A stretch of DNA of 64,000 nt from Trileptium ribeirensis (taxonomy: Eukaryota; Nematoda; Enoplea; Enoplida; Thoracostomopsidae): assembly GCA_030248225.1 (NCBI GenBank), contig JASANE010000706.1, forward strand, positions 1 to 64,000, given 5' to 3'. The position numbers and the translations under genes are program-made. The notes below the pieces were generated by a model. It searched no databases. It saw only the letters and a list, made by a program, of their open reading frames with translations, and had not been told where the DNA came from. Positions 28,081 through 63,247 of this stretch are shown here, in pieces (the first letter of the stretch is position 1; every line of letters starts with the position of its first letter).

Positions 28081-28258
28081 ACAGAGAATCCAAAGCTCCA
28101 ACACACCACGGCAAAACGACCACACACGCAAACAAACACCACAATCACCAGAGAAACACACAGAACACGCCTTCAAGCAAAACAAACACATACCAGACAA
28201 GACAGAAGTCACCGCCACACTACCAAACGACCCCCCAACCCCAGTCAGAAAAAACGGA
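28081..28258. other. T-poor, A/C-rich tract left of the transposase
   Basis: About 180 bp with very few T on the + strand, made of words such as CAAACAAACACCACAATCAC. It resembles the much longer T-free tract at 61.7 kb. The following 300 bp (to about 28560) are GC-rich with many short purine and C runs. Neither part looks like the surrounding host DNA. Confidence 0.6.
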
Positions 28259-28831
28259 AGTAAATATTTACTGCGCTACAGATTAGATTTGATCCAATTT
28301 TTAGCCCCCTCTACACTAACAACACTGAGATCGGCAATATAGCGACCCATACTACGCCACAAAGGGGATAAAAAAGAGGCGAAGTGTCCATAAAAACACG
28401 CAAGAGAAAGTTAACATTGCCAAATTTTAAGAAACCTAAGGACCCCTAAAATGCCGTAAACAATGGAGGAAAAATCAAAAGACCCCATTTGGAAAAGACG
28501 GGAAAGGGTAAGCCACCCCTGGGGAGGGAACGGATAACAAAAGGGACGGGCCGGGTACGTGCCAACCTTTTCCCAGGTTTACATAAATGAGAAAAGAGCG
28601 GGGGCTCATGGACAATGTCCCCCCCAGCCTTCATTGGGGTGGAAATACTCCATGAGAGTATATTTTGGGGATATTGTCCAAGAGGTTTTTCTAGGTTTTT
28701 TGGGCACTGTTATTCCAGGTAATGTCTTGGACTTATTATTATAGTAAAATAATTCTCACAGTAGATAAATTCACATAAAACTCACACAATAGTTCACGTA
28801 ATAACGCAATAATTATCACAGTAGGTAGTTA

Positions 28832-28895
28832 AGTATTTACAAGTTAGTTCTCACGACACAATTAGTATTTACAACTTAGTTCTCACGACACAATT
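28832..28895. repeat. 32-bp direct repeat upstream of the transposase promoter
   Basis: AGTATTTACAASTTAGTTCT followed by CACGACACAATT occurs at 28832 and 28864, directly adjacent and with one difference. It lies just upstream of the TATA box and could hold a binding site. Confidence 0.9.
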
Positions 28896-28908
28896 ACCTC
28901 TTTTCTTC

Positions 28909-28947
28909 TATAAAAGGAGGACACTCTCCTCCAGTTCATCATTCAAG
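28909..28947 (+). promoter_or_regulatory. TATA box and short leader of the transposase gene
   Basis: TATAAAAGG at 28909-28917 lies 31 bp before the ATG at 28948. A hairpin GGAGGA-CACTC-TCCTCC starts right after it. A transcript starting about 25-30 bp downstream of this TATA box would begin almost at the start codon. Confidence 0.55.
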
Positions 28948-29838: not shown

Positions 29839-29926
29839 AGCAAATACAGCTCCTTGTATCAAAACATCCCTCTCAAGGGCTACTAAATGAGGTTGGTGAA
29901 CTTGGGGAGGAAAATGTCCAGGAGCT

Positions 29927-30660
29927 CACATTTGGGGGAAAATGCCCCGGGGCCCCACTTGGGGGGGGGGGAGGGCCTCCACAAGAGCCGCACGGCGCGC
30001 CCCACCCCCCCCCCGACAAGGAACCAAGATTTCTACACGCGGGGGAGCAACGACGAGGGCCCACCACCCCCTAGAACCAAAGAATAAAGAGCGGCCCCAC
30101 AACACCTCCCCCCCTGCGGGCAGCAAACCTCACTTAAATACACGCCTCCACCCGAGCCCACACCTCCTTTATTCGGCGGAACAAACCGAAACAGAGACAC
30201 AGCGCCCCTATAACGCACCATTCTCTTCTTTTGCATGCGAAGACCGTCATGAATGCCAAAAATCCACCACCCAATGGACCTCTATATGGCTATAAATCTG
30301 GTCCCTCCTATATGCATATCAAAACCAACTACAAATACAGAAACTCTTTAAGCTTGCAACTACCACTGGTCATATACAGAAAATGAAAAACAGCCCCAAA
30401 AAATCTGCCGCGGGAGCAAAAACGAAAACATCATCATGGAATGATATAATTCCCACACCAAGATGCGGCAGAAATACTTTTCTTGCCAAATTAAATAAGC
30501 TAAATTAAACATCTTGGAAAGCCATTACACTCGCATAACGAAAATCTGCACTAAACAGGAACTTTGTAGGAGCTCTCAACCCTCAAAAGTGGGGGGGCCC
30601 TTAAACCACCCTCAGCCCCACCTCCCACATTCCCCCACCACCGGAGCCCGCAAACCAGGC
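29927..30660. other. GC/homopolymer-rich low-quality-looking tract right of the transposase
   Basis: Long G and C runs (for example near 29955-29966 and 30003-30014) and A/C-rich words with little T. Overlapping frames on all strands are driven by composition and encode P-, G- and R-rich nonsense. I see no gene. Confidence 0.55.
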
Positions 30661-31256
30661 CCGAGCCGGCTCTAAAATTTTTCGATCATTCGCTCGTCTA
30701 GTATGGTGGCTCAAATTCACGGCGGACCATTTGTTTCGCAGGAAATGTGGACCATTTTCAATGCGGTAGATATAAAAGAGGTTTTTCAACGAATCATCTA
30801 ACACTGACAATCTTTATTACAGAAACTATGATTTTGGTTAACACGCAGCCATTATAAAAGTATGTTCCTCTTCTGGTGTACCAGAATATACCAGGGTTGT
30901 CCTCATCGGATCATTAAGACTTATTACAGGCCAAACCCTAAATTCAAAATTACTTTCCATGAAATTTAAGAGAATATTCTTGATCTAACTAAGCCTTATA
31001 TTTTGGGATAAAAATAATTCTTTAAAATTACAAGAAATAGTTCCGGCGGTGAAAAAATCAAACAATATTCTCTTAAATTCAATGGTAAGTATTTGCGCAT
31101 CCGCCCATGTTTTGCTTTCAATGATGTCCGGTGCATTATCAACTGCATCAAAGCTTGCCATTGCTAGAATTCAAATAATGTGTCGTGTCATATCGTGTTT
31201 TTTAAACTTTTAAATGTTTCAAATGGTGATCCTCATTGGTACTGCTGTGCGTGACT
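30661..31256. other. No gene seen
   Basis: Returns to host-like AT-rich DNA. GATATAAAAGAGG at about 30768 is TATA-like but leads to no ORF. Confidence 0.4.
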
Positions 31257-32304
31257 ATATCAGGCGTACCAATCAAAATACCACATACCGAGGACGTGAT
31301 ATCTGGGAATGCTAATCGAGGTTGTCGTTTAACCACGTTAAAAGCTTGATTTTCTGACAATATCAGGCGTACCAATCAAAATACCACATACCGAGGACGT
31401 GATATCCGGGAATGCTGATCGAGGTTGTCGTTTAACCATGTTAAAAACTTGATTTTCTGACAATATCAGGCATACCAATCAAAATTCCACATACCGAGGA
31501 CGTGATATCCGGGAATGCTGATCGAGGTTGTCGTTTAACCACATTAAAAACTTGATTTTCTGACAATATCAGGCGTACCAATCAAAATACCACATACCGA
31601 GGACGTGATATCCGGGAATGCTAATCGAGGTTGTCGTTTAACCACGTTAAAAACTTGATTTTCTGACAATATCAGGCGTACCAATCAAAATACCACATGC
31701 CGAGGACGTGATATCCGGGAATGCTAATCGAGGTTGTCGTTTAACCACGTTAAAAACTTGATTTTCTGACAATATCAGGCGTACCAATCAAAATACCACA
31801 TACCGAGGACGTGATATCCGGGAATGCTGATCGAGGTTGTCGTTTAACCACGTTAAAAACTTGATTTTCTGACAATATCAGGCGTACCAATCAAAATACC
31901 ACATACCGAGGACGTGATATCCGGGAATGCTAATCGAGGTGGTCGTTTAACCACGTTAAAAACTTGATTTTCTGACAATATCAGGCGTACCAATCAAAAT
32001 AGCACATACTGGGGACGTGATATCCGGGAATGCTGATCGAGGTTGTCGTTTAACCACGTTAAAAACTTGATTTTCTGACAATATCAGGCGTACCAATCAA
32101 AATACCACATACCGAGGACGTGATATCCGGGAATGCTGATCGAGGTTGTCGTTTAACCACATCGAGGTTGTCGTTTAACCACGTTAAAAACTTGATTTTC
32201 TGACACTATCAGGCGTACCAATCAAAATACCACATACCGGGGACGTGATATCCGGGAATGCTGATCGAGGTTGTCGCTAAACCACGTTAAAAACTGGATT
32301 TTCT
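31257..32304. repeat. Minisatellite, 103 bp x 10
   Basis: CAGGCGTACCAATCAAAATA starts copies at 31261, 31364, 31467, 31570, 31673, 31776, 31879, 31982, 32085 and 32210. The period is exactly 103 bp for nine copies. The tenth is displaced by a 22-bp internal re-duplication of ATCGAGGTTGTCGTTTAACC. Copies differ at only a few positions (such as CTGATC/CTAATC), so the array is young or homogenised. There are no spacers, so it is not a CRISPR array. Confidence 0.97.
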
Positions 32305-39923: not shown

Positions 39924-41158
39924 TGTAACAGGCTCGTTCCGGCCCGTTACGCGTCTCTCACACGATTCCGACGTTAAGTCCGCTTAAACACGCCTCAAAT
40001 CGGAGTGGATAAAAGTTTACGGGAACAATGTTTTCATGTGGTGTGACTGGGTGCCATGGGCACCGACAATTGCGTTTCGTATTACTATATTATGCATGTA
40101 TTTTTGCCGTTGCTATGCTTTTGTCATTGATATAACCTGTTATTGCATGACCTGTTTTATGATTGTGTAGCCGGATAAGGCGCCACTGAGCCCAGAGGAA
40201 ACTGGCTTCGCTCATCTGGTTAAACTCAGAAAGATAAAAATGTAGGATAGTATTTCACTGGCTAGGACAGAGAATCCGAACGGAACTCGACCAATAGCCC
40301 ATGTTTCTCCACTGGAAGTTCAAATTTCTGACCGTCCGGGAATAGGAGGCCCTTGACAACTTAAGGGATCGGAAAGTAATCAAAATCAGGACTATCAATT
40401 TTTACCTGGTTCAAGCAAACCATAGCCTAATGGTCACAATAGTGAGCCGAGACAAATGGGTTACGGTAATTTCCGATTATTCGGAAACAACGGACATCGG
40501 GCTTGTTTATCGGCCCGTAGCCGTCCAACGGTTCAGATTTACCGAAAAGGCCCGAGTTTTTTTTTTCGGTAGAGAATTTTTAGGGCTTTCAAACGAGCTC
40601 AAGACATCACAAATTGTTGGAGGATTTCCTGAGATATTCTAGGGACAAACAGATGAACATTTAATTAACAGCCAATACTTACGCTAGGTTTGGCTGGTGA
40701 CCATGGTTCCGAGTGGACCTGATATAGGCATATATATATATATAGTTATGTATATATATAGATATGTGTGTACTGCCTGATTTCCGTGTCGCGGTACGTC
40801 TATTTTTCCGCCCCTCCGTATCAAAACCTTTCTTTTTGTAGCACCCTTTGACGCCCAAAATTGCCTGACCACCATACTAACAACTGGTTTTTCCGGTACT
40901 CATCGGATCAGTGATCGAACGTACGCGCGTTTCCAAGTAGTCTACCCATTTAGGCACCTGGCGAGGCTAGGCGGGTCTCGATCTGACCAGTCATCCCGCT
41001 GCTATATAACTTATCTTCCTGTTTTAAAATGCACCACGAAAATTCAACACAAAATTCCGTCAGTTTGTACCAACTCCGTATTTGACCCCAGACCCTAAAT
41101 GTGCTCACGCGACCCCTCATTCTGCTCGCCTGCTCCTGGCGAGTACAACAATATCCGA
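39924..41158 (+). repeat. 5' LTR
   Basis: Starts TGTAACAGGCTCGTTCC. It matches the 3' LTR to ATATCCGA at 41158 with few differences; the main one is an extra 27-bp hairpin-bearing segment near 40465-40491. It contains a (TA)n stretch near 40731-40762 and the hairpin CTCGCC-TGCTC-CTGGCGAG near its end. The right limit is uncertain, because the two LTRs stop matching at a place without a CA end. Confidence 0.8.
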
Positions 41159-41625: not shown

Positions 41626-43611
41626 ATGGATTCCACCGTTAACCATAACGGAGATTTGGAAACCAACGATTTTCTTGGCTGGACTGACGGACCCATGGAG
41701 GACGACTTACGTGCCAGGCCGCGACGGGCCGCTGGCACCGGTGAGCGACCGCTCACTCCCCCGCCCCGACCTCCTGGACAATCGCGTCGGGGAGAATCAT
41801 CTGAGTCACCTGGACTGGATACAAATACTGCTAATGCTATCCTGCACCACCTGACTACCCAACCAGCTGGTCCTCCTATGATCCCACTAAGAGACATGCC
41901 TACTTTTGATGGGAAACCTGGAGGCCAAGACTTTGAGGACTGGGTTCGAATGTATAATCGTCTCGTCAACACCAATGGTTGGGACGATCGGCGAAAATTT
42001 ATTTGCGTTCCAGCATTCTTGCGTGGACCGGCAAGGGAGGCCTTTGAGGGCCTTCCACCGTCAAAACGCCAAAGTTTTCTAGGACTAGTTGCTAACTTGC
42101 GCTTTCTATTTTCGTCGTCTCGCCGTCCAGAGAAATCATTGTCTGGACTGTGCACACGACAACAGGGAGCAAATGAACCCGTAGCGATGTGCGGTTTAGA
42201 ATTGCAGAAGTTGTGTGATCGCGCTTTTCCCGACATGGAAGACGAGCAGAGGGACACCATGCTTCGCACGTTTTTCCAGAGAGGCTTACGCCCTGAGGTG
42301 CGTAGGCAGGTTCTCAACCAGATCCATGAGTGTGAGACATTTCGGGATACCGTGAGTGTTGCGAAGCGATACGAAGACGCTAGCGCCGCATGCCCCGAAC
42401 CAGACGCGCCTGTCGCTAGTAAGCCTCGTGCCAAAACGGTAAATTCTTTACTTGAGGAAGGAGGTGAAGGCCTGATCACACAGCTTCAAAACATGATGGA
42501 GGAACATCGCAAGGCGAACAATAACAACAGCGATACAATAAGTCGGTTGCTGGATGTAATTGATAAAAGGGTCGAAAGCCCGCGTCAACTTAACGCTCTC
42601 GCGCCGCCGTTTGTGCCCGGCTCACCTGCCGCGCCTCTGTGTTTGCCGATACCGCACATTACCTGCCATCGCTGCGGAGAACCAGGACACGTCATGCGCG
42701 AATGCCCGTATAACGCGCGCTACCCGCCTGCTGTGAATGGCGCGCCGCGCAATATCGATCCAGCCCCAGCATACGCATCTGGAGCTGCGCGTCGAGAGCC
42801 AGGGCAGCAAGGACCGAGAAACGGCGTGGATATATACCCACGAAACGATAACTACACTGCGGGCCGAGGCGGCCCACCGCCACAGTTACGGCGAGCCGAA
42901 AGCAGAAACGGATATCGGAATAATTTCGGGTGGAACAATCCACCCAATGCGGGAATGCGACCTAGTGGCCCGAATCAAGCGGGACAGCAATATGGTCGAC
43001 CACCGCCGGGATTTGCTAGTAATACTCGCGGAAATGATAACTATACGAACCGGCCGGTTCAGGCCTATGGATATCAACGGGCCCAAAGCGAATGACCCCA
43101 ATCTAATAGAGGCATGGGGCCCCAGCCACCGCAGACTGGTCGATTTTATTCACGGGACGACAACAACCGGAACAGCGGCGCTGTACCGCGTCGGCGATAC
43201 CAGTTAAATTGCAGCGCATCGCAAGGTAATGGCAATAGAGAACCAAGCCCAGCCACTACTCATCGTCTAGAAGTGCTCAGCCGTGAACTCGGTATGATCC
43301 AAGGTAAACTATGGTGTAGTGAACCGACTGGACGAGTGAACGCTATCGCGACTACTGACGAACCATTGTACAATGATGACGGATACCTGATAAACAGACA
43401 CGGTGACTTGGACGATTTTGAGACTATGGAAGGACTCGTTGAGAGACATCTGGACGTGATCACGTCAACTTCGTGGGCTGATGCCGCGCGTCTTCCACGG
43501 AGCCGTGATCTAGTTCAGGGTATGGACAGCCCCGGACTTATGGAATTTGGTCCTCGGGACTTGGACGACGAACTGCACAGTGATGAGTCTAACGGCACTG
43601 TAAAGCCATAA
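41626..43611 (+). pseudogene. gag: gag: capsid and CCHC nucleocapsid, one in-frame stop
   Basis: ATG at 41626. Residues about 85-255 have the hydrophobic pattern of a retrotransposon capsid (FEDWVRMYNRLV, then FLRGPAREAFEGL, then LRTFFQRGLRPEVR). A CCHC zinc knuckle lies near residue 345 (CHRCGEPGHVMREC), followed by an R-, G-, N- and P-rich tail. A TGA at 43093-43095 ends the 489-residue product, but the same frame stays open to 43611 with in-character polar sequence, so full length was probably about 661 residues. Gag builds the particle and packages the RNA. The next ORF opens one frame back (-1), overlapping by about 20 bases. Confidence 0.85.
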
Positions 43612-43661: not shown

Positions 43662-44942
43662 ATGCAAGAGGTAGTCTCCATGCTCGAACAGGTTAGGTGT
43701 GCCCATCAGAAAGAGATCGCGCATGTGCACCACCAGCTAATAGACCACATCCTTCGAGCAAATATGCGCTCGTCGGTACAAGCTATAATGGAATCCATGC
43801 TGAACGGCGAATTATCTCCCACCGTTATCGACGTCGTTATGTTACGACGATTATTTTCCATGGATCCACGCATTTCTAAGACTATCCTCATGCGCGAGCC
43901 CACCCTCGCCTATCAGTTTGGTCGCGTCATGCCTGTGATCGTGGATTTAACCGCATTCCGCTTTGGATTCATATTGCAATTACCATTGCCAATGCGCAAT
44001 GACGTCCGGCCATACTTTCGGATCTATAACACCGGCTGGAACGCACCTACCACGCTAACGCAGCTGAGACTGCCGCTACCTCAATATGCTGCCCGCTTAG
44101 GGCACATTCGCTTCGAATCACTAAATTTGGGAGCATGCAAGCAAAGACCAGGAATCGCTTTCTGCGAATCGCACGCGCTGATAACCGATCATAGCACCAA
44201 TTGCTTAGAATGGATTATTGCAGGCGAACATGTGCCCGAGACTATTAAACATACATGCAGCAACCGTTCCCTGATAGGTCTACTTGCCAACGACACGTCT
44301 GTACACACGACTATACAGGGAGTACTAATTCGGACTAGTGAACCCGAGGTTATATTGACAAACCGAAGACAACTGGCTAACGTTACGATGTGTAAGGCGA
44401 TAAAGGTACCGCCTAATGGAGTTTTCTGGTTTCCACACGGAAACTATACTCAGTTAGTCATAGGGTCGATCGTGCTCACTAGCATGTTGAAACCCGAGAA
44501 AATTACCATAAAATTTGTACCAAATATTACTATTGACCGGCTATCCGGTATCAAACTACGACCTCTGACTTGGGACTCGCTTGACAACGCCAAGGCTATC
44601 AATTTGCGAGTTGCGCAGATAGCTAAGGATCAAGTACGTAGCGTGGTTAATCTTCCCGCTGTGGAATACACCGGATTCTTGCCCTACTTCCTCATTACCG
44701 TCGTTGTAGGACTGATCAGTCTGGTCTATTTTATGACTAAATGCAAGGTCCCGCCTAAGTACGGATATTATATTCCCCGATGGTTCCCATGTCGCGGACG
44801 ACTAATTAGGACCGATAGTAAGCCTAAGAAAGCGATACGATGGATTAGAGCGAAACACCGATTACCTAGTGCCCCACCCGCGGAGGACGACTTTCCTCAT
44901 ACAGACAGGACTTCGCCGACTGAGGTCACGGTTGGGCCTTAG
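43662..44942 (+). CDS. env: Envelope-like membrane protein (F-type-like), placed between gag and protease
   Basis: 426 residues from the ATG, and open from about 43590. It has five N-glycosylation sequons (NRS, NDT, NVT, NYT, NIT), spaced cysteines in the middle, one transmembrane segment at about residues 340-362 and a basic cytoplasmic tail. The first third (helical, then a LSPTVID block and a LPLP block) follows the pattern I know from the membrane-anchored subunit of baculovirus-F-like envelopes of insect errantiviruses. No signal peptide, cleavage site or fusion peptide is visible in this ORF, so the N-terminal part seems absent or unrecognised. It ends in TAG, after which the same frame continues into the protease. 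An envelope is normally 3' of pol. The function is inferred; another membrane protein is possible. Confidence 0.6.
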   Translation: MQEVVSMLEQVRCAHQKEIAHVHHQLIDHILRANMRSSVQAIMESMLNGELSPTVIDVVMLRRLFSMDPRISKTILMREPTLAYQFGRVMPVIVDLTAFRFGFILQLPLPMRNDVRPYFRIYNTGWNAPTTLTQLRLPLPQYAARLGHIRFESLNLGACKQRPGIAFCESHALITDHSTNCLEWIIAGEHVPETIKHTCSNRSLIGLLANDTSVHTTIQGVLIRTSEPEVILTNRRQLANVTMCKAIKVPPNGVFWFPHGNYTQLVIGSIVLTSMLKPEKITIKFVPNITIDRLSGIKLRPLTWDSLDNAKAINLRVAQIAKDQVRSVVNLPAVEYTGFLPYFLITVVVGLISLVYFMTKCKVPPKYGYYIPRWFPCRGRLIRTDSKPKKAIRWIRAKHRLPSAPPAEDDFPHTDRTSPTEVTVGP

Positions 44943-44954
44943 GGAACGCCGCAC

Positions 44955-45908
44955 GTGTCCGTCGCGTCTAGCCGTGCCCCACGTCGTTCGAACATACTAT
45001 TAACATCACGTAACTCATCCGAGGAAGAACTTGTTTTCATCGAGGACGACGAGCTGTTTGTCGCTCCCACTCGTGACTCCCGTCGTGGACCTCGCCAAGG
45101 CGTGTTTACTAGACAACTAAACACCATGAACGCAGGTAACACTCCACTGCTTATTAACGCAACAATACTTGGCACCACAGTTATGACCCTTGTAGACACT
45201 GGAGCTGACGTCTCAATCATGTCCCAAGCACTAGCTGCCCGTTTAGGACTGGTTCCTCGTGACACGAACACTACCCGGATAGTATCAGCTACCCAAAAGG
45301 AATTGACAATCAGCGGAGTAGTAAAAGCTCCGATCACTATAGGATCGCTAAGTACACCGTGCGACTTTCAGGTAACTACCGACACCCCGCACGAATGTAT
45401 TCTGGGCACCGACTTTATGGCGTTACTACCGTATGTCGCCATAAACTTCAAAGACCGTTGCTTGGATCTATCCAACGGAAATGAAAACTGCTCGGCGCCT
45501 TTCGCCGACCAAGGCGATTATAGACCGCCAGTCATCAACGTGGTAATCAGAAAATACACTCAAGTACCACCAAACACCGAGCTTTTCATCAATGCCATTC
45601 CGGAAATTACGCAACCACCGACCGGGCAAGCTTTATTCGTGCCCGATCCCTTCATTAGGGACGTTGCTATCGCCCACTCTCTAGTGCTTACTGGCCAACG
45701 CATGATCCCGATAGCACTGATGAACTTTGGGAACTTTCCCGTTGCTATACACGCCGGACAGACAATAGGACATATTGAGATGCTTGATGACAACGAAGTC
45801 GAGTTCTTATATGACAGCAACAAGCGTCTACTACAGCTTGACCCCCGAAGCACACTAAGCAATGCAACAATATCGGGGTCACGCGAGACAATGTTGTCCA
45901 AATTATAG
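44955..45908 (+). CDS. pro: Aspartic protease
   Basis: In the same frame as the preceding envelope-like ORF, separated by one TAG at 44940-44942; the GTG at 44955 is just the first start-like codon. The catalytic motif is DTGAD near residue 80 (TLVDTGADVSIMS), with ILGTDFMALL near residue 148, which is the flap-to-second-half pattern of retropepsins. It works as a homodimer to cut the polyproteins. After about residue 170 a less conserved part leads to the stop at 45906, while the RT frame opens one base back. Confidence 0.85.
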   Translation: MSVASSRAPRRSNILLTSRNSSEEELVFIEDDELFVAPTRDSRRGPRQGVFTRQLNTMNAGNTPLLINATILGTTVMTLVDTGADVSIMSQALAARLGLVPRDTNTTRIVSATQKELTISGVVKAPITIGSLSTPCDFQVTTDTPHECILGTDFMALLPYVAINFKDRCLDLSNGNENCSAPFADQGDYRPPVINVVIRKYTQVPPNTELFINAIPEITQPPTGQALFVPDPFIRDVAIAHSLVLTGQRMIPIALMNFGNFPVAIHAGQTIGHIEMLDDNEVEFLYDSNKRLLQLDPRSTLSNATISGSRETMLSKL

Positions 45909-45952: not shown

Positions 45953-47131
45953 TTGAGTAAAATCGATTTTGGCCAAACAACCCTAAACCCTTTCGAGCTC
46001 AAACAATTGAAAACGACCATCTCGGAGAACGCAGACATATTTAGTGTACACCCGTTCGATCTAGGACGATGTGGTGTGCACCAACACAGGATAGTCACTG
46101 GAGAAGCAAGGCCTATTAAACAGGTGCCCTACCGCCTAGTGCATTCACTGCCAGAACCCTTGCGTGAGGAACTAAACAACATGGTAGAAGCAGGTTTAAT
46201 AACGCCATCCGATTCACCTTGGGGCTCTCCCATAGTTTATGTCACCAAAAGTGACGGTACCTTGCGGTTGTGTGTCGACTTCCGTAAACTCAATGTAGAC
46301 GCAGAACGTGACTTGTACCCACTACCCCGCATAGACGACATACTGGAGTGTCTCAGAAACACCAAATTCATGTCCAGTTTAGATCTTAATAAAGGTTTCT
46401 GGCAATTAGAACTGGACCCTGAGACCAAGGAGAAAACCTCCTTCGTCACTGTCCATGGACAGTATGAATATAACGTTCTGCCATTCGCCCTGAATTCTTC
46501 ACCAGGCGCCTTTCAAAGGTGCATGTCGATCATACTAAAGGGCCTAGAATGGGAACGGTGCCTCATCTACATAGATGACATGCTAGTCTTTTCACCCACC
46601 TTCGAACAACACCTAGCGGACTTAATAACGGTATTTGACAGGTTCTGTAAGGCAAATCTTAAATTAAAACCCTCCAAATGTCAGTTTGGACAGAAACAAT
46701 TAAAATACCTTGGACATAGTATTAGTTCAGAGGGAGTTAAACCAGACCCCGAGAAAACCGCTGCTATAGATAATTACAAACGACCGGAAACTCTCAAACA
46801 ATTGCAGAGCTTCTTAGGACTGGTGGGATACTATCACAAATTTATACCACACTACTCTGAAATTTGCGAACCACTCAACGCGCTTAGGCGAAAGGACAGT
46901 GAATTTAAATGGACACCGCAATGCGAGGAAGCATTCGGAAAACTGCGTAAGGCATTAGTGCAAGAACCGTTACTAATACATCCGGACTTTTCTTATCCTT
47001 TCATACTCCAAACGGACGCTTCTGGATATGCCCTAGGGGCTGTGCTTTCACAGAAAACCGATAAAGGGACACTGCCAATCGCCTACCCGAACAAGTCGCT
47101 CGTGGACTATCAACGCCGATACCTGCCATAG
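45953..47131 (+). CDS. pol: Reverse transcriptase and start of RNase H
   Basis: The frame is open well before 45953. RT motifs: LRLCVDFRKLN, FMSSLDLNKGFWQLEL (motif A), LPFALNSSPGAFQRCM (motif B), CLIYIDDMLVFS (motif C, YIDD near residue 205), LKYLGHSISSEGV (motif E region) and FLGLVGYYHKFIP. RNase H begins with ILQTDASGYALGAVLSQ. The order and wording are Ty3/gypsy. The ORF ends in a TAG at 47129 caused by a one-base loss in the middle of RNase H; the protein resumes in the next frame. Confidence 0.92.
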   Translation: MSKIDFGQTTLNPFELKQLKTTISENADIFSVHPFDLGRCGVHQHRIVTGEARPIKQVPYRLVHSLPEPLREELNNMVEAGLITPSDSPWGSPIVYVTKSDGTLRLCVDFRKLNVDAERDLYPLPRIDDILECLRNTKFMSSLDLNKGFWQLELDPETKEKTSFVTVHGQYEYNVLPFALNSSPGAFQRCMSIILKGLEWERCLIYIDDMLVFSPTFEQHLADLITVFDRFCKANLKLKPSKCQFGQKQLKYLGHSISSEGVKPDPEKTAAIDNYKRPETLKQLQSFLGLVGYYHKFIPHYSEICEPLNALRRKDSEFKWTPQCEEAFGKLRKALVQEPLLIHPDFSYPFILQTDASGYALGAVLSQKTDKGTLPIAYPNKSLVDYQRRYLP

Positions 47132-48054: not shown

Positions 48055-49116
48055 TTACCATACTTCCAACAATACGAAGGGAGGAACCTTCTCAATTATT
48101 TACCCTGTATTCAACGCAGAGATAAACAATTTGGTCCTATTTGGTGGTACTTACATACGCGACAGTCGCCCGCCGACGAAAAGGCAGCGACCGCCCTCAA
48201 ACTAGAAGCCCACCATTATAGACTCTGCCCCGACACCGCCATTTTATACTTGCATCCCATTGTGCCAAACGACCATAGACCCAAATTATGCGTACCCAGA
48301 TTGCTCATACGGCAAATACTTAAACACAAACATGACACCTTATTCGGTGGACACCCTGGTCGAGATCGACTACTGAGCAAACTCAAGCAATTCTACTACT
48401 GGGAAACCATGGGTAAGGACGTGGACGAATACGTAAAGAGGTGCGTACTCTGCCAACGATCACGCAATCTACCACAAAATGTTCGAGCCGCGCTCGGAGA
48501 GAACCCGTTGGCTAGTGCACCCATGCATCGCATGTTTGTCGACATGTTGAACACTCGGGTACTATCCCGGAACGGAAACAGGTATGTAATTGCCTTTATC
48601 GACCAGTTCACAAAACTAGTAATTGCCGCTGCTTTACCGGACCAAACCGCTAAGAGCGTAGATAAGGTTTTCGTCGAGGACGTGGTGTGCCGCTATGGCG
48701 CACCCGAAGAGCTAGTCTCAGACCGAGGCGGATGTTTCGTTTCAGAAGTAATGGAGGCCTTGTGCGCTAGGCTACACACTTTTAAGCGCGAGACGCTCAG
48801 CTATAACCCGAAGGCCAATGGAGAATATGAACGCTTTAACCGTACTCTGTTATTTCTCCTAAAAGTAGCATTACCTGAAAAGGACCATACTACGTGGGAT
48901 GAAGTCCTACCGTATTGCATCATGTCCTACAATTCAGCCGTACACGCTTCCACGCACTACCCACCATTCATGCTTATGCACGGATTCCAACCCCGCGTGC
49001 CGGGTGGAATCGAAACCCAGACTGACTGGGGACGTTACCCCGGAGCAGAAGCATATCGTGCTAACGTACAACGGTGGTTAGCCACCATCAGGGATCAAGC
49101 CTATCGATCCATGTAA
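48055..49116 (+). pseudogene. pol: Integrase: zinc-binding domain and DDE core
   Basis: The frame opens at 48055. The HHCC zinc domain is visible (KHKHDTLFGGHPGRDRL, then CVLCQRS). The DDE core has FVDML, LVSDRGG and NGEYERFNRTL, with the last Asp and Glu about 35 residues apart. It would insert the DNA copy into the genome. A TAA at 49114-49116 cuts off the C-terminal domain, which continues in the same frame. The first in-frame start-like codon (TTG 48250) is not meaningful, since this is part of a polyprotein. Confidence 0.87.
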
Positions 49117-49830: not shown

Positions 49831-51650
49831 CCCTACGAGAACAGGAACGATCAGTTCGAACTGAGGAGCCTACCAGACCTCTAACAGTAAAACGCTCAGA
49901 GGACGGTCGAGCACTACGACCATTCAACGTTAATGACCTAGGTCTCGTAGAATTACTCGCCTCACAAGATCCGGACGAACACTCGCCCCACACTCCAGAA
50001 CAAGCCACATCTCCAACCTCAGTAGTTGAACATGCTGTTCAAACCTCTCCGCTTACGCCTGCCCAACGTCGAGCCGCCATCGCTACCCAAACATCCCGCA
50101 GCCCCCAGACACAACGCTTAGTGACTGAATCGGACCAGCCAGTGACACCATACCACACCTATCGCGAACCTATAGCGTCCTACGAACAACCATATTCCAT
50201 ACCTCGTCAGGCATACTCCGCCCCACCTACACCACTTCCGCATACTCCCCTAATGCCACTAGGATTCGAAGCCACAATAGAGGACTATGTTCCAGACGAA
50301 TGGCTCACACCATATTACACCCCTCCTATACCACAACCCGCGCAATCCGTCCCAATAACCAGCCAACCTCCACTGGAACCCGCACCAACACCAAAACCTA
50401 CGCCTAAACCACGACAAAAGCAAGTCCAACACCCTACACCGACGAATGAACCAGTATCATCCGTGAGTTCGGAGACCACGTCACCTGAAACAATCGATTC
50501 CCCGACGCCACCCCACCGGTGGAAAATCCCTCCCCTATTGTCTCCCCTAGCGGAGCATGGAACCAAGGGCCCACAGGTACCATCCTTTGGTCGATGGACC
50601 ACCCAGAGACAAAATGAGTTAGCGCAGTGGGAATGGGAAATGCAGGAAATAAGGAGGAAGAGAGAGGAAGCCGCTCGCGCCCGAGGAGAAATACAAGATG
50701 CAACTGAATTAATGAAGTACATAAGGGGATCTCCCATACAATGCATTCCCTCGGAAGACCAAATAGCAGCCGACGGAATTGTAGAAGAATTTATTGAAAG
50801 TTTAGCTCGACAACGAGAAGCAAGTACGCAGAACACAAGTAAACAGAGCCGACCTTCCGAGTTTTCGGAAGGCGGTCGACCGAAACGATTACGACCACGA
50901 ACGGCAGACAAGGACAATGAGACAATATCAACCATTGGCGAATCAACCAAGGGCTCCTCTACCGGGAGGAAGGGAAGAGCGCCGCCGCGCAGCGCTCCCT
51001 CCACCCTCAAGGGAGTTCTAACTCGACCATCACGCGCCAAACCACGTAGACCAACCCCAGCTAGAGCCCAATCACAAGTTAGTTGGGAAGACGAAGAGGA
51101 TGAGATACCTCTTAGCCAACTCTTACCGGGACCCCGCCGAAGGCCCCACTTCGAACTCGACCCTCCAACCGAGGAGAGCGAGGGATCTCCTGAAATGGGA
51201 CCATCTTCACGCCAAGTCAAGGAGAGGGAAGAACCTCCTCAGCCTACTCGCCGACAGCCACATAGACAAGCCAGAGACCATTGTCGCTGGTATGAAGAAT
51301 ACTTACCACACGGAGAAGAAGCTCGGGTCATAATACCACGACTCGACCCCCGGAATGTGAAGCCCCAGACTATGGCACCAGCTCGACGGACTATACCTCT
51401 CGCTCCACCGACTCGACATCGTGACCCTGTCATGTCGATGGATTATCCATCTGGTAGTGCTCGTGCACGGCACGACATGTTCGAATCTTTTAGGGACATC
51501 TTTGACGAACAGGACATCGAGGACATGTTATCCGCACATCCGGACTTGGAACCAAACGAGGACAGTGGACAAAGACAAATACGACCCGGAGATGTCGGAC
51601 TGGAGGTGGTCCGACCTCCTAGACAACTGCCTTGCGAGAGACGGTTGTAA
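49831..51650 (+). CDS. Proline-rich, charged ORF of unknown function
   Basis: Frame 0 is open from 49779; the first start-like codon of the long ORF is GTG at 50121 (509 codons). The product is P-, T-, S- and Q-rich, with a helical charged stretch near QWEWEMQEIRRKREEAARA and basic patches (GRPKRLRPR, GPRRRPHFELD). No catalytic motif is seen and I do not recognise it. It is probably continuous with pol upstream and, after a shift near 51650, with the NADAR ORF downstream. The DNA contains the hairpin CCTTCCGAGTTTTCGGAAGG at 50863. It could be a structural or RNA-binding accessory protein, but this is a guess. Confidence 0.55.
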
Positions 51651-51774
51651 CGTTTGAATCACTCAAGCAGCACCCCCAGAAATCACGAGCTCCCGCCACC
51701 AATCTCCCTCAAGAACCGCCGCTAATGGCGATGAATACTATTGCAGGAATCACCAATTCAAAGGACGCAACGAC

Positions 51775-52908
51775 ATGGAACAACTTCCGCAACCTCGGGT
51801 GCCGTATTACGCTATCAACTATGGTGCGCCGATCGAAACGTTCCTGTCCAAAGGCACACGATGGCCGGAACTTTCAAACATGGCACCGCTAGGCCAAACC
51901 ATAAGCCAATATCCCATTGAATACGCCTCGACGGAGCAAGGATACCAGCTCCTCGTCACATATTTATTCGTCGAGGAGCAGGCGAAACAAGACATTTCGG
52001 ACTTGAAGATGGGAGCTCGGGACGTTAAAGCCATCTCCCGTAGGAACAAACAAAAGTTCCTGAACCCGGAAACAACTGAGCGCCTCCGCCCAATACTACC
52101 CCATCTCATGCGGACGGTGCTACTAGAGAAATTCAAGATTCCTCGGTTCAGGGATGCCCTACTCGCCACCGGATATGCGCTATTGCTCGAGGCAAACCGG
52201 TCTGATTCATTCTGGGGAATCGGCCTATGGCCGGAAGACATCACCTTCGGCAAGCGACCGCCACCCTGCCATAATGTTATGGGTCGCCTATTGGAGGAAG
52301 TTCGATCCTTCCTCCGCCATAACGTCGCCTCCTGGCCAACTGTCTTGATTTTGGGCGACTCATTAGCAGCGCCCTTGGTCAATATGGCCGCATCAAAGGG
52401 GTGGTTTGCCATCACATGGCCGGGAGCCACCATGCAATTCTTAGTCCGATTGGCGACGTGCATCGCAACGCCGCAGACCAAAACCGTCATGATACTTGGT
52501 GGATATAAAGCGGCCTTACGAGCGAAGCCGCACGAAGGTCGTTTGCTGGATACACCCAGTAAGGTCATGCGTCGAGTGCGCCGATATATATGCACATTCG
52601 ACTACCTTCTTAGCGATGGAGCCCGAGCAATTATCGCCCCGCCTCCACCACATTGGGACATTGGACAGGACGATACCATTGGATGGCACGACGAGCTCAC
52701 CAAACTATTTCAAGACATTAAATGGCAATTTCCCGCCAGAATCCAGAAAGCGTCAATGTCAGAATACCCACCCGAATTAGTCGAACCAGGCGCTTGGGAA
52801 AACATTACCGACGGCAACGAAATTTCGGAACCTCGCATTTCCGAACCTTATATCGGGTACTTCCGCAAATGGGTTCAACAGAACCTAGCCCCCAATAGTT
52901 GGGAGTGA
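51775..52908 (+). CDS. NADAR domain fused to an SGNH/GDSL-like domain
   Basis: 377 residues from ATG 51775; the frame is open from 51658. Residues about 15-150 carry the NADAR (YbiA-like) pattern: PELSNMAPL, then ASTEQGYQ, a basic helical middle, then LLATGYALLLEANRSDSFWG, close to the family's TG-x-x-x-L-x-E-x-x-x-x-D-x-x-W-G-x-G. NADAR proteins act as N-glycosidases on ADP-ribose-linked or riboflavin-pathway substrates; some remove ADP-ribose from guanine. From residue about 185, VLILGDSLAAPL looks like block I of SGNH hydrolases and VMILGGYKA stands where block III (GxND) lies, but Asn is lost and the terminal DxxH is unclear. It is intact and the last ORF before the 3' LTR. I know of no standard retroelement gene like it. 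Confidence 0.75.
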   Translation: MEQLPQPRVPYYAINYGAPIETFLSKGTRWPELSNMAPLGQTISQYPIEYASTEQGYQLLVTYLFVEEQAKQDISDLKMGARDVKAISRRNKQKFLNPETTERLRPILPHLMRTVLLEKFKIPRFRDALLATGYALLLEANRSDSFWGIGLWPEDITFGKRPPPCHNVMGRLLEEVRSFLRHNVASWPTVLILGDSLAAPLVNMAASKGWFAITWPGATMQFLVRLATCIATPQTKTVMILGGYKAALRAKPHEGRLLDTPSKVMRRVRRYICTFDYLLSDGARAIIAPPPPHWDIGQDDTIGWHDELTKLFQDIKWQFPARIQKASMSEYPPELVEPGAWENITDGNEISEPRISEPYIGYFRKWVQQNLAPNSWE

Positions 52909-53564: not shown

Positions 53565-54762
53565 TGTAACAGGCCCGTTCCGGCCCGTTACGCGTCTCTC
53601 ACACGATTCCGACGTTAAGTCCGCTTAAACACGCCTCAAATCGGACTGGATAAAAGTTTACGGGAACAAGGTTTTCATGTGGTGTGACTGGGTGCCATGG
53701 GTACCGACAATTGCGTTTCGTATTACTATATTATGCATGTATTTTTGCCGTTGCTATGCTTTTGTCATTGATATAACCTGTTATTGCATGACCTGTTTTA
53801 TGATTGTGTAGCCGGATAAGGCGCCACTGAGCCCAGAGGAAACTGGCTTCGCTCATCTGGTTAAACTCAGAAAGATAAAAATGTAGGATAGTATTTCACT
53901 GGCTAGGACAGAAAATCCGAACGGAACTCGACCAATAGCCCATGTTTCTCCACTGAAAGTTCAAATTTCTGACCGTCCGGGAATAGGAGGCCCTTGACAA
54001 CTTAAGGGATCGGAAAGTAATCAAAATCAGGACTATCAATTTTACCTGGTTCAAGCAAACCATAGCCTAATGGTCACAACAGTGAGCCGAGACAAATGGG
54101 TTATGGACGGCCTGTTTATCGGCCCGTAGCCGTCCAACGGTTCAGATTTACCGAAAAGGCCCATAGTTCTTTTCGGTAGAGAATTTTTAGGGCTTTCAAA
54201 CGAGCTCAAGACATCACAAATTGTTGGAGGATTTCCTGAGATATTCTAGGGACAAACAGGTGAACATTTAATTAACAGCCAATACTTACGCTAGGTTTGG
54301 CTGGTGACCATGGTTCCGAGTGGACCTGATATAGGCATATATATATATAGTTATGTATATATATAGATGTGTGTGTACTGCCTGATTTCCGTGTCGCAGT
54401 ACGGCTATTTTTCCGCCCCTCCGTATCAAAACCTTTCTTTTTGTAGCACCCTTTGACGCCCAAAATTGCCTGACCACCATACTAACAACTGGTTTTTCTG
54501 GTACTCATCGGATCAGTGATCGACCGTACGCGTGTTTCCAAGTAGTCTACCCATTTAGGCACCTGGCGAGGCCAGGCGGGTCTCGATCTGACCAGTCATC
54601 CCGCTGCTATATAACTTATCTTCCTGTTTTATAATGCACCACGAAAATTCAACACAAAATTCCGTCAGTTTGTACCAACTCCGTATTTGACCCCAGACCC
54701 TAAATGTGCTCACGCGACCCCTCATTCTACTCGCCTGCTCCTGGCGAGCACAACGATATCCG
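53565..54762 (+). repeat. 3' LTR
   Basis: Starts TGTAACAGGCCCGTTCC and matches the 5' LTR to ATATCCGA. It lacks the 27-bp hairpin segment present in the 5' LTR. Beyond 54762 the sequence differs from the 5' leader, as it should. However, a TTACA end that would mirror the TGTAACAGG start appears only at 54798, so the exact end is unclear. Confidence 0.8.
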
Positions 54763-57389
54763 ACGGGTCTTTGTCCGACTTCTGGTTAGCCCGTTACAAC
54801 CTGTCAAAGCGACACCAATTTGGCATACCGACTGCAAGTGGGCACAAACCAACCGAAAATTTATCCCCGACTCGAAAGTAGGCAAATCGCCCCTCATTGT
54901 GTTCACCACGTCGAGACATCTCCAAAGATGCTCGGTGGGTCTCCGTCAGCTGCCCCGTTAACCCGGGACTGCCGGCGAAAGCGCCCCCTCCACTATCGGC
55001 ACTCTCTCTATCCGTCGTGATTTTAGTGCCCTCTAACCGCTGCCGTTAAGGCAGGGAATTCACCCCTTGCCTGAACCGCCTCTCCAGGGCGAGTTCAACG
55101 ACGCCCGGCGGGCGTCGCTCCGCCCAGCCGTTAGCGCGGGAGAACCCGCTGAAACCCTGTACACTAATATATGTCGGAACCCAAAATTGGGTCCCGACCC
55201 GCCACTGCGTCTACCCCCCTCGTGTTTGGTATCATTCGGCCCCGTTTTTCGTCCTGGGACCGAATTTCGCCCCAGCCCCTCGAAAATCCCTCGGGAACCC
55301 CCTGTCCCGCCTCCCTTCCCGTGCCCCTTCTCTTTCATTTTCCTTTTCGCTTTCCTTTCCTTTTTTCTCTCTCTAACCGACTTCTTTAGTCGGTTATCGC
55401 TGTTGTCGCTGTCGTCGTGGTTGTGTTGTGTTGTGTGTGTCGTTGTTGTTGTAGTTGCTGTTGTTGTTGTTGTTGTTGTTGTTCTGCATGTTTCTGGTGT
55501 GAACTTGAGCGACCTTTCTGTCGCTCAGGTCGCCTGTGTGTCTCGTGTGTAGTGTGTGTTTATGTGTTCATGAGTAGTGTATGTATATGTGTATGTATAT
55601 AGATATATATGTATATATATAGTATGTAGGAATATGACAAAAACAGAACAGACTAGGACGGACATGTAAAACTCAGTTAAATTCATGAGTTTTATGGACG
55701 GACTGGACGCATAGGATTAGCAAAGACGGGGGGGCATGTTTAGGGCCATCCCGCGGGCTCTGGGAGTCCCTGAATGGGACCCCCGATAGACGAACGGGGG
55801 CACGGGAATGTGCTGCGCCCCCTACCGCGAAATCAGCTCATTCCCACCTTCGGTCCCCCCCTTCGGGACGTCTAAAGTCGTCCTGTCGGGATATTTGAAA
55901 TTCAGCTAGGAATGCTAGGAATGTTTGGCTTTATTTTGTAAGCCGACATGTAAACGTGCAATGTTTGCACGTTTACCCATGGATTTCGTAGTAAGATTTA
56001 GCCCCAGATGGCCTCTAAGTAAGCTTAATTACGTGATGGATAAGGCAGCTAACTCGCTAAATAGCTGGAATTTGACCTCAAATCAGCGAGTTAGCTGGGG
56101 GAAATTTGATGGATGGGGACTAGAAGACGAATCTGTCCTGAAATAAGGACAGATTTCCAGCTTAATTCAATTATGCTATATAGATAATAGGTTTAAAATT
56201 TTAAATCTAACGGGTAAGTCAACCATTTCGTGGAACAGTTGGGGGGATAACAGTCGATTTAGGATTAGGTAATAGGTTTAAGAGATCTGAGTAATGATCT
56301 TCAGATCTATTCTTGACATAATTTTAAAAGTTACGCTGGAATTTAAGCTAAAACTCACAGATGGTCGACCTCCGAGTATTCGGAGGGTTCAAATTTGATG
56401 TCGGCGATTTCGATTGAAGCCGACTCTCTCTAACGGTGACCCATGGTTTACGATAGCTGTCAAAAACGAAATCTTGGGAATTTTTCAATTGGCCGCCCGG
56501 GTTTGAACTCGAAAAAGTGGGCGGTAAAAGACCATCTCCGATTGGATGGCGACAAAATCGCTATCCGCCAGGACAGCTGAAAATTTTGAGGCGACGACCA
56601 CCGCGTCGCCTCTTGGAATCAGTTCGACTTCGGCAGCGCGGAGTTCGGTCGACTCTACTGACCGGCTCCGACGCTTAGGTTTTATTGTGTTAATTTCGCA
56701 ACAAGTTTGCTTTCCCATGCTTTCTTTCGTTTGCTTTCGATTAGCGTTTGGGATGGAATTCGGCCGACGGATGACCCGCGTAGACATCTTCCGTCTCGCG
56801 GAAGGGGACTGGCAGTTGCCGTCCCGGACCGAATATTGTAAGTCAGGAGGTGAACCAGGCGTATGGGGGTTTATTTTCCCCAGATCAAAGTGTAACAGAT
56901 CATTGTTATATGACTAGTTGTCGCGCAATTTTACCCCGATAACTCGACCAGACGCCCGTCGAAGGACATCTTAGTTTCCCCCGTCAGCTGGCCACACTTT
57001 TGCATGTTCCTTGACAAACCTCCTTTAGTCGAGTTCCGTTTTGAGCAGGTTGAGTGATTGCACGGGGGGTATTAGGTTGTGAACACGAAAGTCAAAGTTA
57101 TTTTGATTCCCCGTGGTCATAGGTAAGGCAAATCGAAATGGGCGCTTCTCGTTCACGCGCTTTTACATGTCTTATTACTCTTGAGTTAGGGCTGTCGAAT
57201 TTTCCTGAGCTGACCACGGTAAAATTTACCAATGAAATCATAGGGACTTACTTGCTTGTCTTTAATCACGGTTATGGTTTACAAATTTTCAGCGTAGTGG
57301 ACTGTTCGACTCTCATGCCGCTGCTTGAGTGCGAACTGACATTGCAGGTAGGGACAGGGGACTAGCCTCTGTCGGGCTTTAGGAAGCCC
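54763..57389. other. GC-richer non-coding tract with at least 14 hairpins
   Basis: No recognisable protein. Perfect or near-perfect hairpins: 55099-55117, 55136-55149, 55173-55198, 55375-55395, 55506-55527, 55950-55976, 56046-56097 (13-bp arms CAGCTAACTCGCT), 56130-56155, 56283-56308, 56369-56386, 56400-56424, 56588-56612 (GAGGCGACG arms), 56788-56804, 57353-57373 and 57374-57389. Arms are 5-13 bp and mostly unrelated in sequence. It starts where the 3' LTR ends and may be part of a neighbouring retroelement's leader. Confidence 0.6.
55441..55484. repeat. (GTT)n microsatellite
   Basis: GTTGTTGTT-rich stretch, within a longer T/G-rich tract (55330-55620) that is nearly the mirror of the A/C-rich tracts elsewhere. 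Confidence 0.85.
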
Positions 57390-61311: not shown

Positions 61312-61660
61312 TCAGTTTGTGTTAGGCGCTTCAGCCACTTTTTCGAACCTCCTTGAGATGGGTAGTTGATCCCAGACGTCGATAGTTTGAACAGCGATGC
61401 TATGCGTAACCACGTTTGGGCGACGTTTTGGTTTTATCAGCTTTCGACGATTACCATTGTCTATTAACTTTGTGAGACATTGCAAAGATATTGTGCCAAG
61501 CGGCGATTTCATCCATTAGACGCTTACAAACCATTACAAAATCGTGTTTTAATCGACGTAGCTCAAGCGGTTCTAGCCTAATTTGCGTTAATATTCCAGG
61601 AAACGAAATTTCAGGAATCTCTGCCCGTGCAGCGAGTCGGTATGTAAACAAACGTTGCAC
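61312..61660 (-). pseudogene. CR1-like LINE C-terminal fragment, frameshifted
   Basis: On the - strand from 61660: VQRLFTYRL, then LEPLELRRLKHDFVMVCKRL, then after a shift near 61460-61510 LIKPKR and THSIAVQTIDVWDQLP. The same blocks occur in the same order near the end of the intact CR1-like ORF at 7.8-10.1 kb (VQRYFTRRL, LEPLELRRLHFDLVMVYK, AWNSLP), so this is a diverged relative truncated to its last 115 codons. It ends exactly where the T-free tract begins. Confidence 0.75.
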
Positions 61661-61666
61661 TTTTTT

Positions 61667-62454
61667 CCAAAGACACAAACAACCAAGGAACAGCAAGACA
61701 CAACAAGAAGAACAGGCGCAAGAGCAAGCACAACAACAAAAACAACAACCCAGACGCCACAAGGCAAGCCCCCAACGACACACACAGGAACAGCACAACA
61801 AAAACCAACCCAGGGAAGAACGCGCACAAAGAAAAGCAAGCGCAAGCCCCAACCAGAAAAAAGAAAACAACAACCCCAAAAAACAAACAAAAGCCACAAC
61901 ACAAAACAGCCAAAAAAACAAAAAAAACGAACAAACCCCCAAGAAACACCAACAACCAAAAGAGAAAAAAAAAAAACACGAAAGAGGACGAAAAAACACA
62001 AAGCCCAAAAGAAAGAAAACAAAAAAAGAAAAGGAACGAAAAAGGCAAAAAGCAACAAACAACAAGAGAAACAAGAGCAAAACAAGGCAACGAGAAAAGC
62101 AACAAGAACACAAACCAAAACCCAACAACACAAAAAAAACCAACACAACAAACAACAAACAAAAACACCCACAACAACAACAACAACACAACAAACACAA
62201 GAACAAAAACAGCACAAAAAAACAACAAGCACAACCCACAAAAAACAACAACCCCAACCAACAAAACCCCCCAAAGAAAAACACAACAGAACAAAACAAA
62301 ACAGCCAAAACAAAACAAAAAAACACAGACCCAAAAACAACAAAAAACAAAAAATAAAAAAACAAAAAAAAAAACCACCACCAAAAAAAAAAAAAAAAAA
62401 AAAAACAAAAAAAAAAAAAACACAAAAAAAAACAAAAAACCAAAAAAAACAACA
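61667..62454. other. T-free A/C-rich tract, 688 bp with no T
   Basis: From 61667 to 62354 there is not a single T on the + strand, and only one (62355) up to 62454. G falls from about 12 per 60 bp at the left to none at the right, where the tract becomes almost pure A with single C. Long frames in several registers exist only because stop codons need T (or A on the other strand). It does not look like a gene; it is either an extreme strand-asymmetric repeat or a sequencing artefact. Confidence 0.9.
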
Positions 62455-62596
62455 TCTGAAATTTTCATGGAAACTATTTTGCCTATGCAAAACAGCTTTA
62501 GTTATATATTGTTCAAGTTTTGGGATACAGATCATTGCAAGGTTTGGTGATTATAGTTCATGTCAGTGTTTATTTACGTTGCAAGTCGAGCTGCGT

Positions 62597-63247
62597 ATGT
62601 CTGACTCTGAACATCCAGCGACGTCTGGCACGCAAGTTTCTGAAGCTCGTGTACTGGAGCTTATAAGACAGAACTCATCTGATCCTTCTTCGGTTTCTAA
62701 CGTTAGTCATATTAACCTAAGCTCTAAATATTTGCAACATCAAGTGGATTGTTTAGCTCGTATCGAAAGGCCAATAATCAAAGCAGAAGCTATTCTAGCC
62801 AGTGGTGTTGACGAAATTGACCCAACAACGCTTTCCACTCTCTTGGCCGAGTCTCGCGCTCAGATTAAAGAACGCTGTAAGCTCCTTCGTATCGCTGACC
62901 TCGGTGGTTGGGCGGCAGTTTCTAATTACAAGGGCTCGTCCGATATTGGCGATTCTCCAGAGGATAGCCGCCGAATTCAAAAAGCAATTGACACAGCTAA
63001 AGCCAAACGCTCCTTACGTTTCTCTTACGGCAACCGCAATGTCCCTTATTCGTCTCAAGCGCCCCGGTTCAGGACATCAGCAGAGGCTGGAGCTCGGTTC
63101 GCCGGCACATATTCCCCCAAAGCGTTTACGGCTTCTTCAGCGAAGCAACTTATGCCATGCTTCACCTGCGGCCGCATTGGACATTTCTCCCACGAATGTC
63201 CTTACGCCAAAGCCGAGTGTCCCAGCGACGCTGGTACCTCCAAGTAG
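62597..63247 (+). CDS. DIRS-like retroelement gag
   Basis: True start is probably ATG 62597 (216 codons); the frame appears longer only because it runs through the T-free tract. The protein is hydrophilic, with a helical middle (LLAESRAQIKERCKLLRIAD) and a C-terminal CCHC knuckle CFTCGRIGHFSHECPY. It overlaps by two bases with the RT frame that follows. A small gag ending in one knuckle, directly followed by a DIRS-type RT, is usual for DIRS/PAT elements. Confidence 0.75.
   Translation: MSDSEHPATSGTQVSEARVLELIRQNSSDPSSVSNVSHINLSSKYLQHQVDCLARIERPIIKAEAILASGVDEIDPTTLSTLLAESRAQIKERCKLLRIADLGGWAAVSNYKGSSDIGDSPEDSRRIQKAIDTAKAKRSLRFSYGNRNVPYSSQAPRFRTSAEAGARFAGTYSPKAFTASSAKQLMPCFTCGRIGHFSHECPYAKAECPSDAGTSK

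Follow-up and report, generated by a model that had tools for sequence, protein, structure and literature searches.

A NADAR-family open reading frame under purifying selection 3' of pol in a multi-copy Ty3/Gypsy-type retrotransposon of the nematode Trileptium ribeirensis

The first 64,000 nucleotides of contig JASANE010000706.1 from Trileptium ribeirensis (GenBank assembly GCA_030248225.1; this whole stretch is the window of the present analysis) contain a long terminal repeat (LTR) retrotransposon whose last open reading frame (ORF) encodes a NADAR domain (Table 1). The element is a multi-copy LTR retrotransposon of the Ty3/Gypsy type: a pair of LTRs encloses protease, reverse transcriptase (RT), RNase H and integrase in that order, and those RT relatives that carry species names among the matches listed in a protein database search come from animals, at 42-50% identity. 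The copy in the window is degenerate, with gag and pol split into ORFs in several frames and stops between them; its LTRs differ at 24 of 1199 aligned columns (98.5% identity over 540 columns and 96.8% over 659). Separated from the integrase ORF by 2.7 kb, the NADAR ORF stands as a frame of its own 3' of pol and 5' of the 3' LTR, which is the position of a third (env) ORF. An initial annotation, made from the letters of the window, had placed it on an LTR retroelement, and this placement holds. As detailed below, NADAR-superfamily ORFs are found in many copies of the element, in two subfamilies, and have been under purifying selection in transposing lineages, as judged from the ratio of nonsynonymous to synonymous substitution (dN/dS).

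Table 1. Features of the element that carries the NADAR ORF, and of the rest of the window
Feature	Coordinates	Strand	Basis or remark
377-residue ORF, NADAR and SGNH-like domains, 3' of pol	51775-52908	+	ORF list, Pfam, copies, dN/dS
NADAR domain, residues 31-181	51865-52317	+	PF08719; E54, E139, D144 and W147 kept, position 61 Val, not Lys
Probable SGNH-like domain, about residues 187-316	52333-52722	+	Low-confidence fold models; GDS at 52354-52362
Near-invariant block 5' of the NADAR ATG	51720-51751	+	Resembles a 3' splice site
5' LTR	39924-41158	+	Pairs with 53565-54763; boundaries good to a few bases
gag-like ORF with CCHC zinc knuckle	41626-43095	+	zf-CCHC, E 3.1e-06 (Pfam)
Fragment next to gag-like ORF	43114-43611	+	ORF list
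426-residue ORF between gag and protease	43662-44942	+	Hydrophobic stretch near C-terminus, read by eye
Aspartic protease	44955-45908	+	PF13975, E 1.1e-13
RT and start of RNase H	45953-47131	+	PF00078, E 7.8e-29; PF17919, E 1.3e-21
Integrase, zinc-binding and core domains	48250-49116	+	PF17921, E 4.8e-20; PF00665, E 1.9e-11
509-residue proline-rich ORF 3' of integrase	50121-51650	+	ORF list
3' LTR	53565-54763	+	Pairs with 5' LTR
ORF with ISXO2-like (IS1595) transposase domain	28948-29838		E 4e-24
785-residue ORF with RT domain	7761-10118	-	E 9.6e-33; LINE-like (long interspersed nuclear element) by eye
Frame ending in CCHC-like motif, gag-like by eye	61655-63247		Adjoins long low-complexity sequence

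The NADAR call of the initial annotation had been made by eye from short motifs, and profile searches bear it out. Pfam family PF08719 matches residues 31-181 of the window ORF with E 3.6e-15 and 57 bits against a cut-off of 35.1, and scores 61, 55.8, 59.5 and 62 bits on the genomic copies L022, L105, L106 and L107. The model phrog_1017 matches at E 3.2e-15. The NCBIfam models TIGR02464 (E 5.7e-12) and NF053876 (E 8.1e-08) also match, both under their equivalog cut-offs; for TIGR02464, the riboflavin-intermediate N-glycosidase, the window copy reaches 46.1 bits and L107 50.7 of the 73.7 required. A profile built from 28 copies matches the NADAR domain-containing protein of PDB entry 8bau at E 2.7e-05 and YbiA (2b3w) at E 0.01. 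On these profile matches, membership of the NADAR superfamily is firm and the domain call is safe. Searches for whole proteins related to the ORF were blank: of 8000 candidates scored in the protein database for the whole ORF none reached E 1e-3, and of 86 for the NADAR part none was significant. With RT as the control in the same database, 803 of 5619 candidates were found at E <=1e-60, the highest-scoring one at 48% identity, and the 120 matches listed all stay at or below 52%. Since the matches listed thus include no close relative of the element, both blanks carry little weight. Viral contigs gave 26 pattern matches, of which none was a relative.

The ORF is not peculiar to the window. In a search of the source assembly (687 Mb, 20,229 contigs, 2,907 first-look candidates), at least 109 matches span nearly the whole ORF, and 101 of these 109 have no stop; the recurrence in other copies by which the initial annotation had proposed to judge the ORF is thus found. 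We fetched 70 of the matches, to which all counts out of 70 refer. Sixty-five of the 70 lack a stop and all 70 begin with ATG.

Substitution among these copies is strongly biased toward synonymous change. By the Nei-Gojobori method (NG86, ratio of sums), dN/dS is 0.094 for the window copy versus the 69 others (median dS 0.67), with 0.071 in residues 1-185, the NADAR part, and 0.113 in the C-terminal part; it is 0.095 in 600 sampled pairs among the other copies. As a frame control, 400 sampled pairs gave 0.096 in frame, versus 1.712 in the +1 frame and 2.793 in the +2 frame. The antisense frames gave 1.439, 0.193 and 2.571, and the frame with 0.193 shares third positions with the ORF. The initial annotation had wavered between selection and chance; a ratio of about 0.09 in 70 copies, against 1.7 and 2.8 in the other sense frames, speaks for selection, and a chance ORF is ruled out by these frame controls together with the other copies. 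The argument first offered, that the ORF is intact while gag and pol are broken, stands as an observation, but the intactness of one copy is little evidence, because a frame of 1131 nt with about 1% of neutral change would usually stay open (an estimate from a stop fraction of 4.6%).

The distribution of variants among copies indicates where the selection acted. Variants present in one copy only comprise 162 nonsynonymous, 66 synonymous and 5 stop changes, for a neutral expectation of 69.6:25.8:4.6%, so that private nonsynonymous and synonymous variants cannot be told from neutral proportions (binomial p 0.50). In contrast, variants shared by two or more copies comprise 200 nonsynonymous, 399 synonymous and 0 stop changes (Fisher p 1.6e-22 for nonsynonymous versus synonymous, against private). 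Selection therefore acted in the replicating lineages, while mutations of single copies were hardly filtered, as would be expected if the element needs the gene. By segment, the shared variants number 35 nonsynonymous to 160 synonymous in residues 18-185, 43 to 132 in residues 186-300 and 85 to 53 in residues 336-377; both the NADAR and the C-terminal domain are constrained, and the tail past about residue 335 is weakly constrained or hardly at all.

As a check on bias in this sample, we turned to elements found through their RT, from the 105 RT matches listed, that were absent from the NADAR match list. We took eight; for one of them the expected stretch did not exist, and the other seven were inspected at that place. 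Five carry the ORF, three of them open, one with an internal stop and one split between frames. The three open ORFs (L105-L107) form a sister subfamily with 74-77% amino acid identity to the window copy. Nine comparisons with this subfamily gave NG86 dN/dS of 0.068-0.100, the six sister-versus-main comparisons being at saturated dS (1.6-2.3); YN00 gave 0.097-0.133 for three comparisons within it. In 12 elements the synonymous distances of RT and ORF are alike (fourfold-site medians 0.313 and 0.365). They are also correlated, with a Mantel r of 0.56 (p 0.002), or of 0.33 (p 0.03) if the window copy is excluded; for the most part, then, ORF and element have moved together.

The stop-to-stop frame begins at 51658, and the ATG-initiated ORF at 51775. 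This ATG is kept in 70 of the 70 copies, whereas the codons 5' of it shift frame in several of 30 copies examined; 51775 is therefore the likely start, and translation as one piece with pol is unlikely. Just upstream lies the near-invariant block of Table 1, with CTAAT at 51722-51726 and AG at 51745-51746; in 33 of 34 copies, drawn from both subfamilies, the sequence ATTGCAGG is found no more than 80 nt from the ATG. This block may be a 3' splice site, or else a short stretch of coding sequence. Two ATGs precede the AG in the window copy, neither of them in the frame of the ORF. No ATG lies between the AG and the ATG of the ORF in eight copies inspected, and the same interval is clear in the window copy. 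Splicing at the block would thus make the ATG of the ORF the first one.

Ligand contacts of a NADAR domain are known from the P. nicotianae NADAR with ADP-ribose. In the description of Schuller et al., E43 and E125 lie at the distal ribose, Y84 and D86 contact adenine and its ribose, and K50, R79, W89, R93 and W133 lie at the diphosphate, with D130 acting via water (PMC11543638). K95 of the E. coli C7 NADAR, the equivalent of K50, is essential for guanine de-ADP-ribosylation (PMC11543638). We placed the residues of the ORF by profile alignment to 8bau and by spacing, in a 27-bit alignment that is surer at E54 and E139 than in the middle region. E54, the counterpart of ribose-contacting E43 (E43/E88), is present in 68 of 70 copies and E139, the counterpart of E125, in 69, the remaining copy having a stop there. 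R90 (in the place of R79) and F95 (Y84) are present in all 70, D97 (D86) in 69, D144 (D130) in all 70 and W147 (W133) in 68. The protein thus keeps its contacts to adenine and ribose and some of the other contact residues.

The initial annotation had also seen an SGNH-like block after the NADAR domain. The GDS motif is there and low-confidence folds lean toward SGNH, but no SGNH profile matches: Pfam yields none for the window ORF at E values up to 1, and none for L022 and L105-L107 at values up to 10, and a search of the PDB by sequence matched no SGNH chain. The AlphaFold2 model of the domain alone has a predicted local distance difference test (pLDDT) score of 53.0, with block means of 62-75 over its first 60 residues; this model and that of the whole ORF are both poor, yet strands and helices alternate in them. 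In Foldseek, SGNH enzymes make up 7 of the first 8 matches to the domain model (titles read by eye; best E 1.1e-03) and lead for the whole-ORF model (best E 1.8e-02). Re-ranking by VIA-align puts a designed Rossmann protein first for both models. With the whole model, ranks 2-17 go to SGNH enzymes; with the domain model, caspases and lumazine synthases do as well as these. Given this mixed ranking the SGNH assignment is a lean, not a proof, and an SGNH-like fold is probable for the C-terminal half. In main-family copies, Ser196 of the GDS motif is kept in 68 of 70 and the candidate His305 in 69. In the sister subfamily, Asn replaces the Ser in all three copies, and Thr, Thr and Ala replace the His. 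Block III of SGNH enzymes carries the motif GxND; here GGYK or GGYR occupies the fitting place and GxND was not seen. SGNH hydrolase as an activity of the whole family is downgraded by the loss of Ser and His in 3/3 sister copies.

We consider it reasonably probable that the ORF is a functional accessory gene of the element, an ORF3 in the env position, in which the NADAR domain handles a ligand. Translation would start at the ATG of the ORF, and the mRNA may be a spliced one. The NADAR pocket would still accept an ADP-ribose-type ligand, with adenosine and ribose; during the cytoplasmic stage of the element's RNA or cDNA the domain would either cleave a ribosyl bond or hold that ligand. With the phosphate-holding Lys gone (see below), this ligand or its linkage probably differs from the guanine-ADP-ribose that known NADARs act on. 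The SGNH-like half is probably a former hydrolase that, in the sister subfamily at least, would now serve in binding or assembly. The ORF protein might also protect the element from ADP-ribosylation. A more specific proposal, which we put forward tentatively and think rather improbable as it stands, is that the element has made the NADAR domain, with the decaying SGNH-like domain fused to it, into a dedicated accessory protein against host NAD/ADP-ribose restriction of retrotransposition, one that would recognise or cleave some ADP-ribose-related adduct or signal, guanine-ADP-ribose excepted. If true, this would be a first sign of NAD/ADP-ribose-based restriction acting on retroelements in this host.

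Several points weigh against a ligand-handling accessory gene. Position 61, seven residues past E54, is Lys in 8bau (the equivalent of K50/K95) and is Val in 68 and Ile in 2 of the 70 copies; it is Val in L105-L107 as well, and the alignment to 8bau is gap-free here. The counterparts of W89 and R93 are Thr and Leu in 70 of 70, and that of K75 is Ala in 63 and Thr in 7. Taken together, these replacements make the diphosphate contacts unlike those of known enzymes, and the ORF protein may be no enzyme at all. A change of D97 to Asn, private to the window copy, touches the pocket. The AlphaFold2 model of the whole ORF is poor (mean pLDDT 38.6, below 50 in residues 1-186), the fold matches shown for it cover mainly residues 148-371, and YbiA is not among the fold matches listed, which come from low-confidence models. 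Sampling matters too: the search picks protein-similar, intact copies, which lowers both dN and the stop count, and the private stops, 5 of 233 or 2.1% versus 4.6% expected, are what a choice of intact copies would give. The only check on the similarity bias is the sister subfamily of three copies, and in two of the seven RT-found elements the 1.4 kb inspected contains no ORF of this kind.

Among other readings, the one that fares best, possible though we would not bet on it, is that the NADAR domain reads or soaks up ADP-ribose-type ligands without catalysis, as a module for structure or targeting in the particle. The retention of adenine- and ribose-facing residues beside the loss of the phosphate-site Lys fits it, and the fused domain, whose Ser and His are gone from the sister copies, offers a precedent for lost chemistry. 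However, both ribose-side glutamates are nearly invariant; in known NADARs they bear on catalysis, and a pure binder would need them less.

Unlikely, and a little more so, is the idea of the initial annotation, an active de-ADP-ribosylase of guanine or another base that shields the RNA or cDNA of the element from host ADP-ribosylation. It can draw on the NADAR profile, on ribose-side glutamates in 68 and 69 of 70 copies and on the guanine de-ADP-ribosylation reported for a eukaryotic NADAR (PMC11543638). But in every one of the 70 copies Val or Ile replaces the Lys that is essential in the E. coli C7 NADAR, so that guanine de-ADP-ribosylation in its known form is unlikely for this protein. The known mechanism of taking ADP-ribose off guanine thus finds no support here, and a canonical guanine de-ADP-ribosylase is downgraded as a candidate.

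Less credible still, and improbable in our judgment, is an Env-like or membrane-targeting ORF3 in which the SGNH-like half drives function by binding lipids or esters and the NADAR domain is a passenger or scaffold. The position after pol would suit this, GDSL-type ORF3s occur in bdelloid LTR elements (PMC5408684), and the esterase of the non-LTR element ZfL2-1 binds lipids (PMC3905857); Ser196 and His305 are also well kept in the main family. Yet it is the NADAR half that is more constrained (shared variants 35:160, versus 43:132 in the C-terminal core), the sister copies have lost both residues, and no hydrophobic segment was noticed in the ORF, by eye only. Retroelements do capture genes and the window copy is degenerate, but a captured host gene fragment without function for the element is hardly tenable at a dN/dS of about 0.09, with shared nonsynonymous variants far below private ones and the same place in two subfamilies, and is ruled out by the private/shared contrast, subject to the sampling caveat.

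Elsewhere in the element, the 426-residue ORF between gag and protease has no Pfam and no NCBIfam match up to E 1; its strongly hydrophobic stretch suggests that it may be a membrane protein within the gag-pol region. The proline-rich ORF 3' of integrase has no Pfam match up to E 1. Among the RT matches listed, 15 of 105 sit in one open frame of 4,705-4,749 residues. These frames exceed the 12.4 kb inter-LTR span of the window copy, so related copies seem to carry additional coding sequence, unless a loss has shortened the window copy. RT itself shows nearly no amino acid change (29 copies, median dN 0.0011 at median dS 0.47), which is striking, although these copies were chosen by protein similarity and the low dN is partly a sampling effect. 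Outside the element, the ISXO2-like transposase ORF has a domain that we take to be as in Merlin-type DNA transposons; a scan of 27500-31500 for inverted repeats found no arm pair flanking it.

With YbiA-type enzymes, such as the P. nicotianae NADAR and the DarTG1 antitoxins, the ORF shares a common profile, the ribose-side glutamates and the D-x-x-W-G motif (PMC11543638, PMC11125620). It differs from them in the Val or Ile at the catalytic or phosphate-site Lys, in the C-terminal SGNH-like fusion and in being borne by an element (PMC11543638, PMC11125620). The role of NADAR in eukaryotes is described as unclear (PMC11125620). NADAR genes recur in phages, in RNA viruses and now in several retroelements. 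A constrained multi-copy NADAR ORF with an altered site offers natural variation, a clear functional expectation and a ligand choice that can be tested in vitro; should the ORF act against ADP-ribosylation by the host, retrotransposons would join the targets of NAD-based immunity. Positive-strand RNA viruses of animals are likewise selfish elements with NADAR, for which counter-defence has been proposed (PMC9503650); unlike the separate ORF of the element, the viral domain is embedded in a polyprotein (PMC9503650).

Retroelements provide the closer comparisons. Among the matches listed in the open-access literature, a body of text that leaves most subscription journals uncovered, only PMC12477816 reports NADAR in transposable elements. 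A Gypsy lineage of Ectocarpus has a conserved YbiA-family NADAR in the N-terminal part of Pol, and its authors suggest that it may process the RNA intermediate (PMC12477816). The T. ribeirensis element is like these in having NADAR in a Ty3/Gypsy context and, going by the published description with sequences uncompared, unlike them in the separate ORF after pol and the SGNH-like fusion (PMC12477816). Tx1 LINEs of Crassostrea gigas, likewise animal retroelements, have a NADAR-like ORF1, but they are non-LTR elements and the domain is in the ORF1 position (PMC12477816). The bdelloid Vesta LTR elements have a GDSL/SGNH ORF3 that likewise lies 3' of pol, and Athena-L elements have GDSL derivatives without catalytic residues (PMC5408684). 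For these ORF3s the published account has 0 occurrences of the word NADAR and describes within-genome variation as mostly neutral, versus the strong constraint seen here (PMC5408684). NADAR in Gypsy elements and GDSL third ORFs in rotifer LTR elements were thus already known (PMC12477816, PMC5408684); new here are the two domain types in one ORF after pol, its strong constraint and its altered NADAR site.
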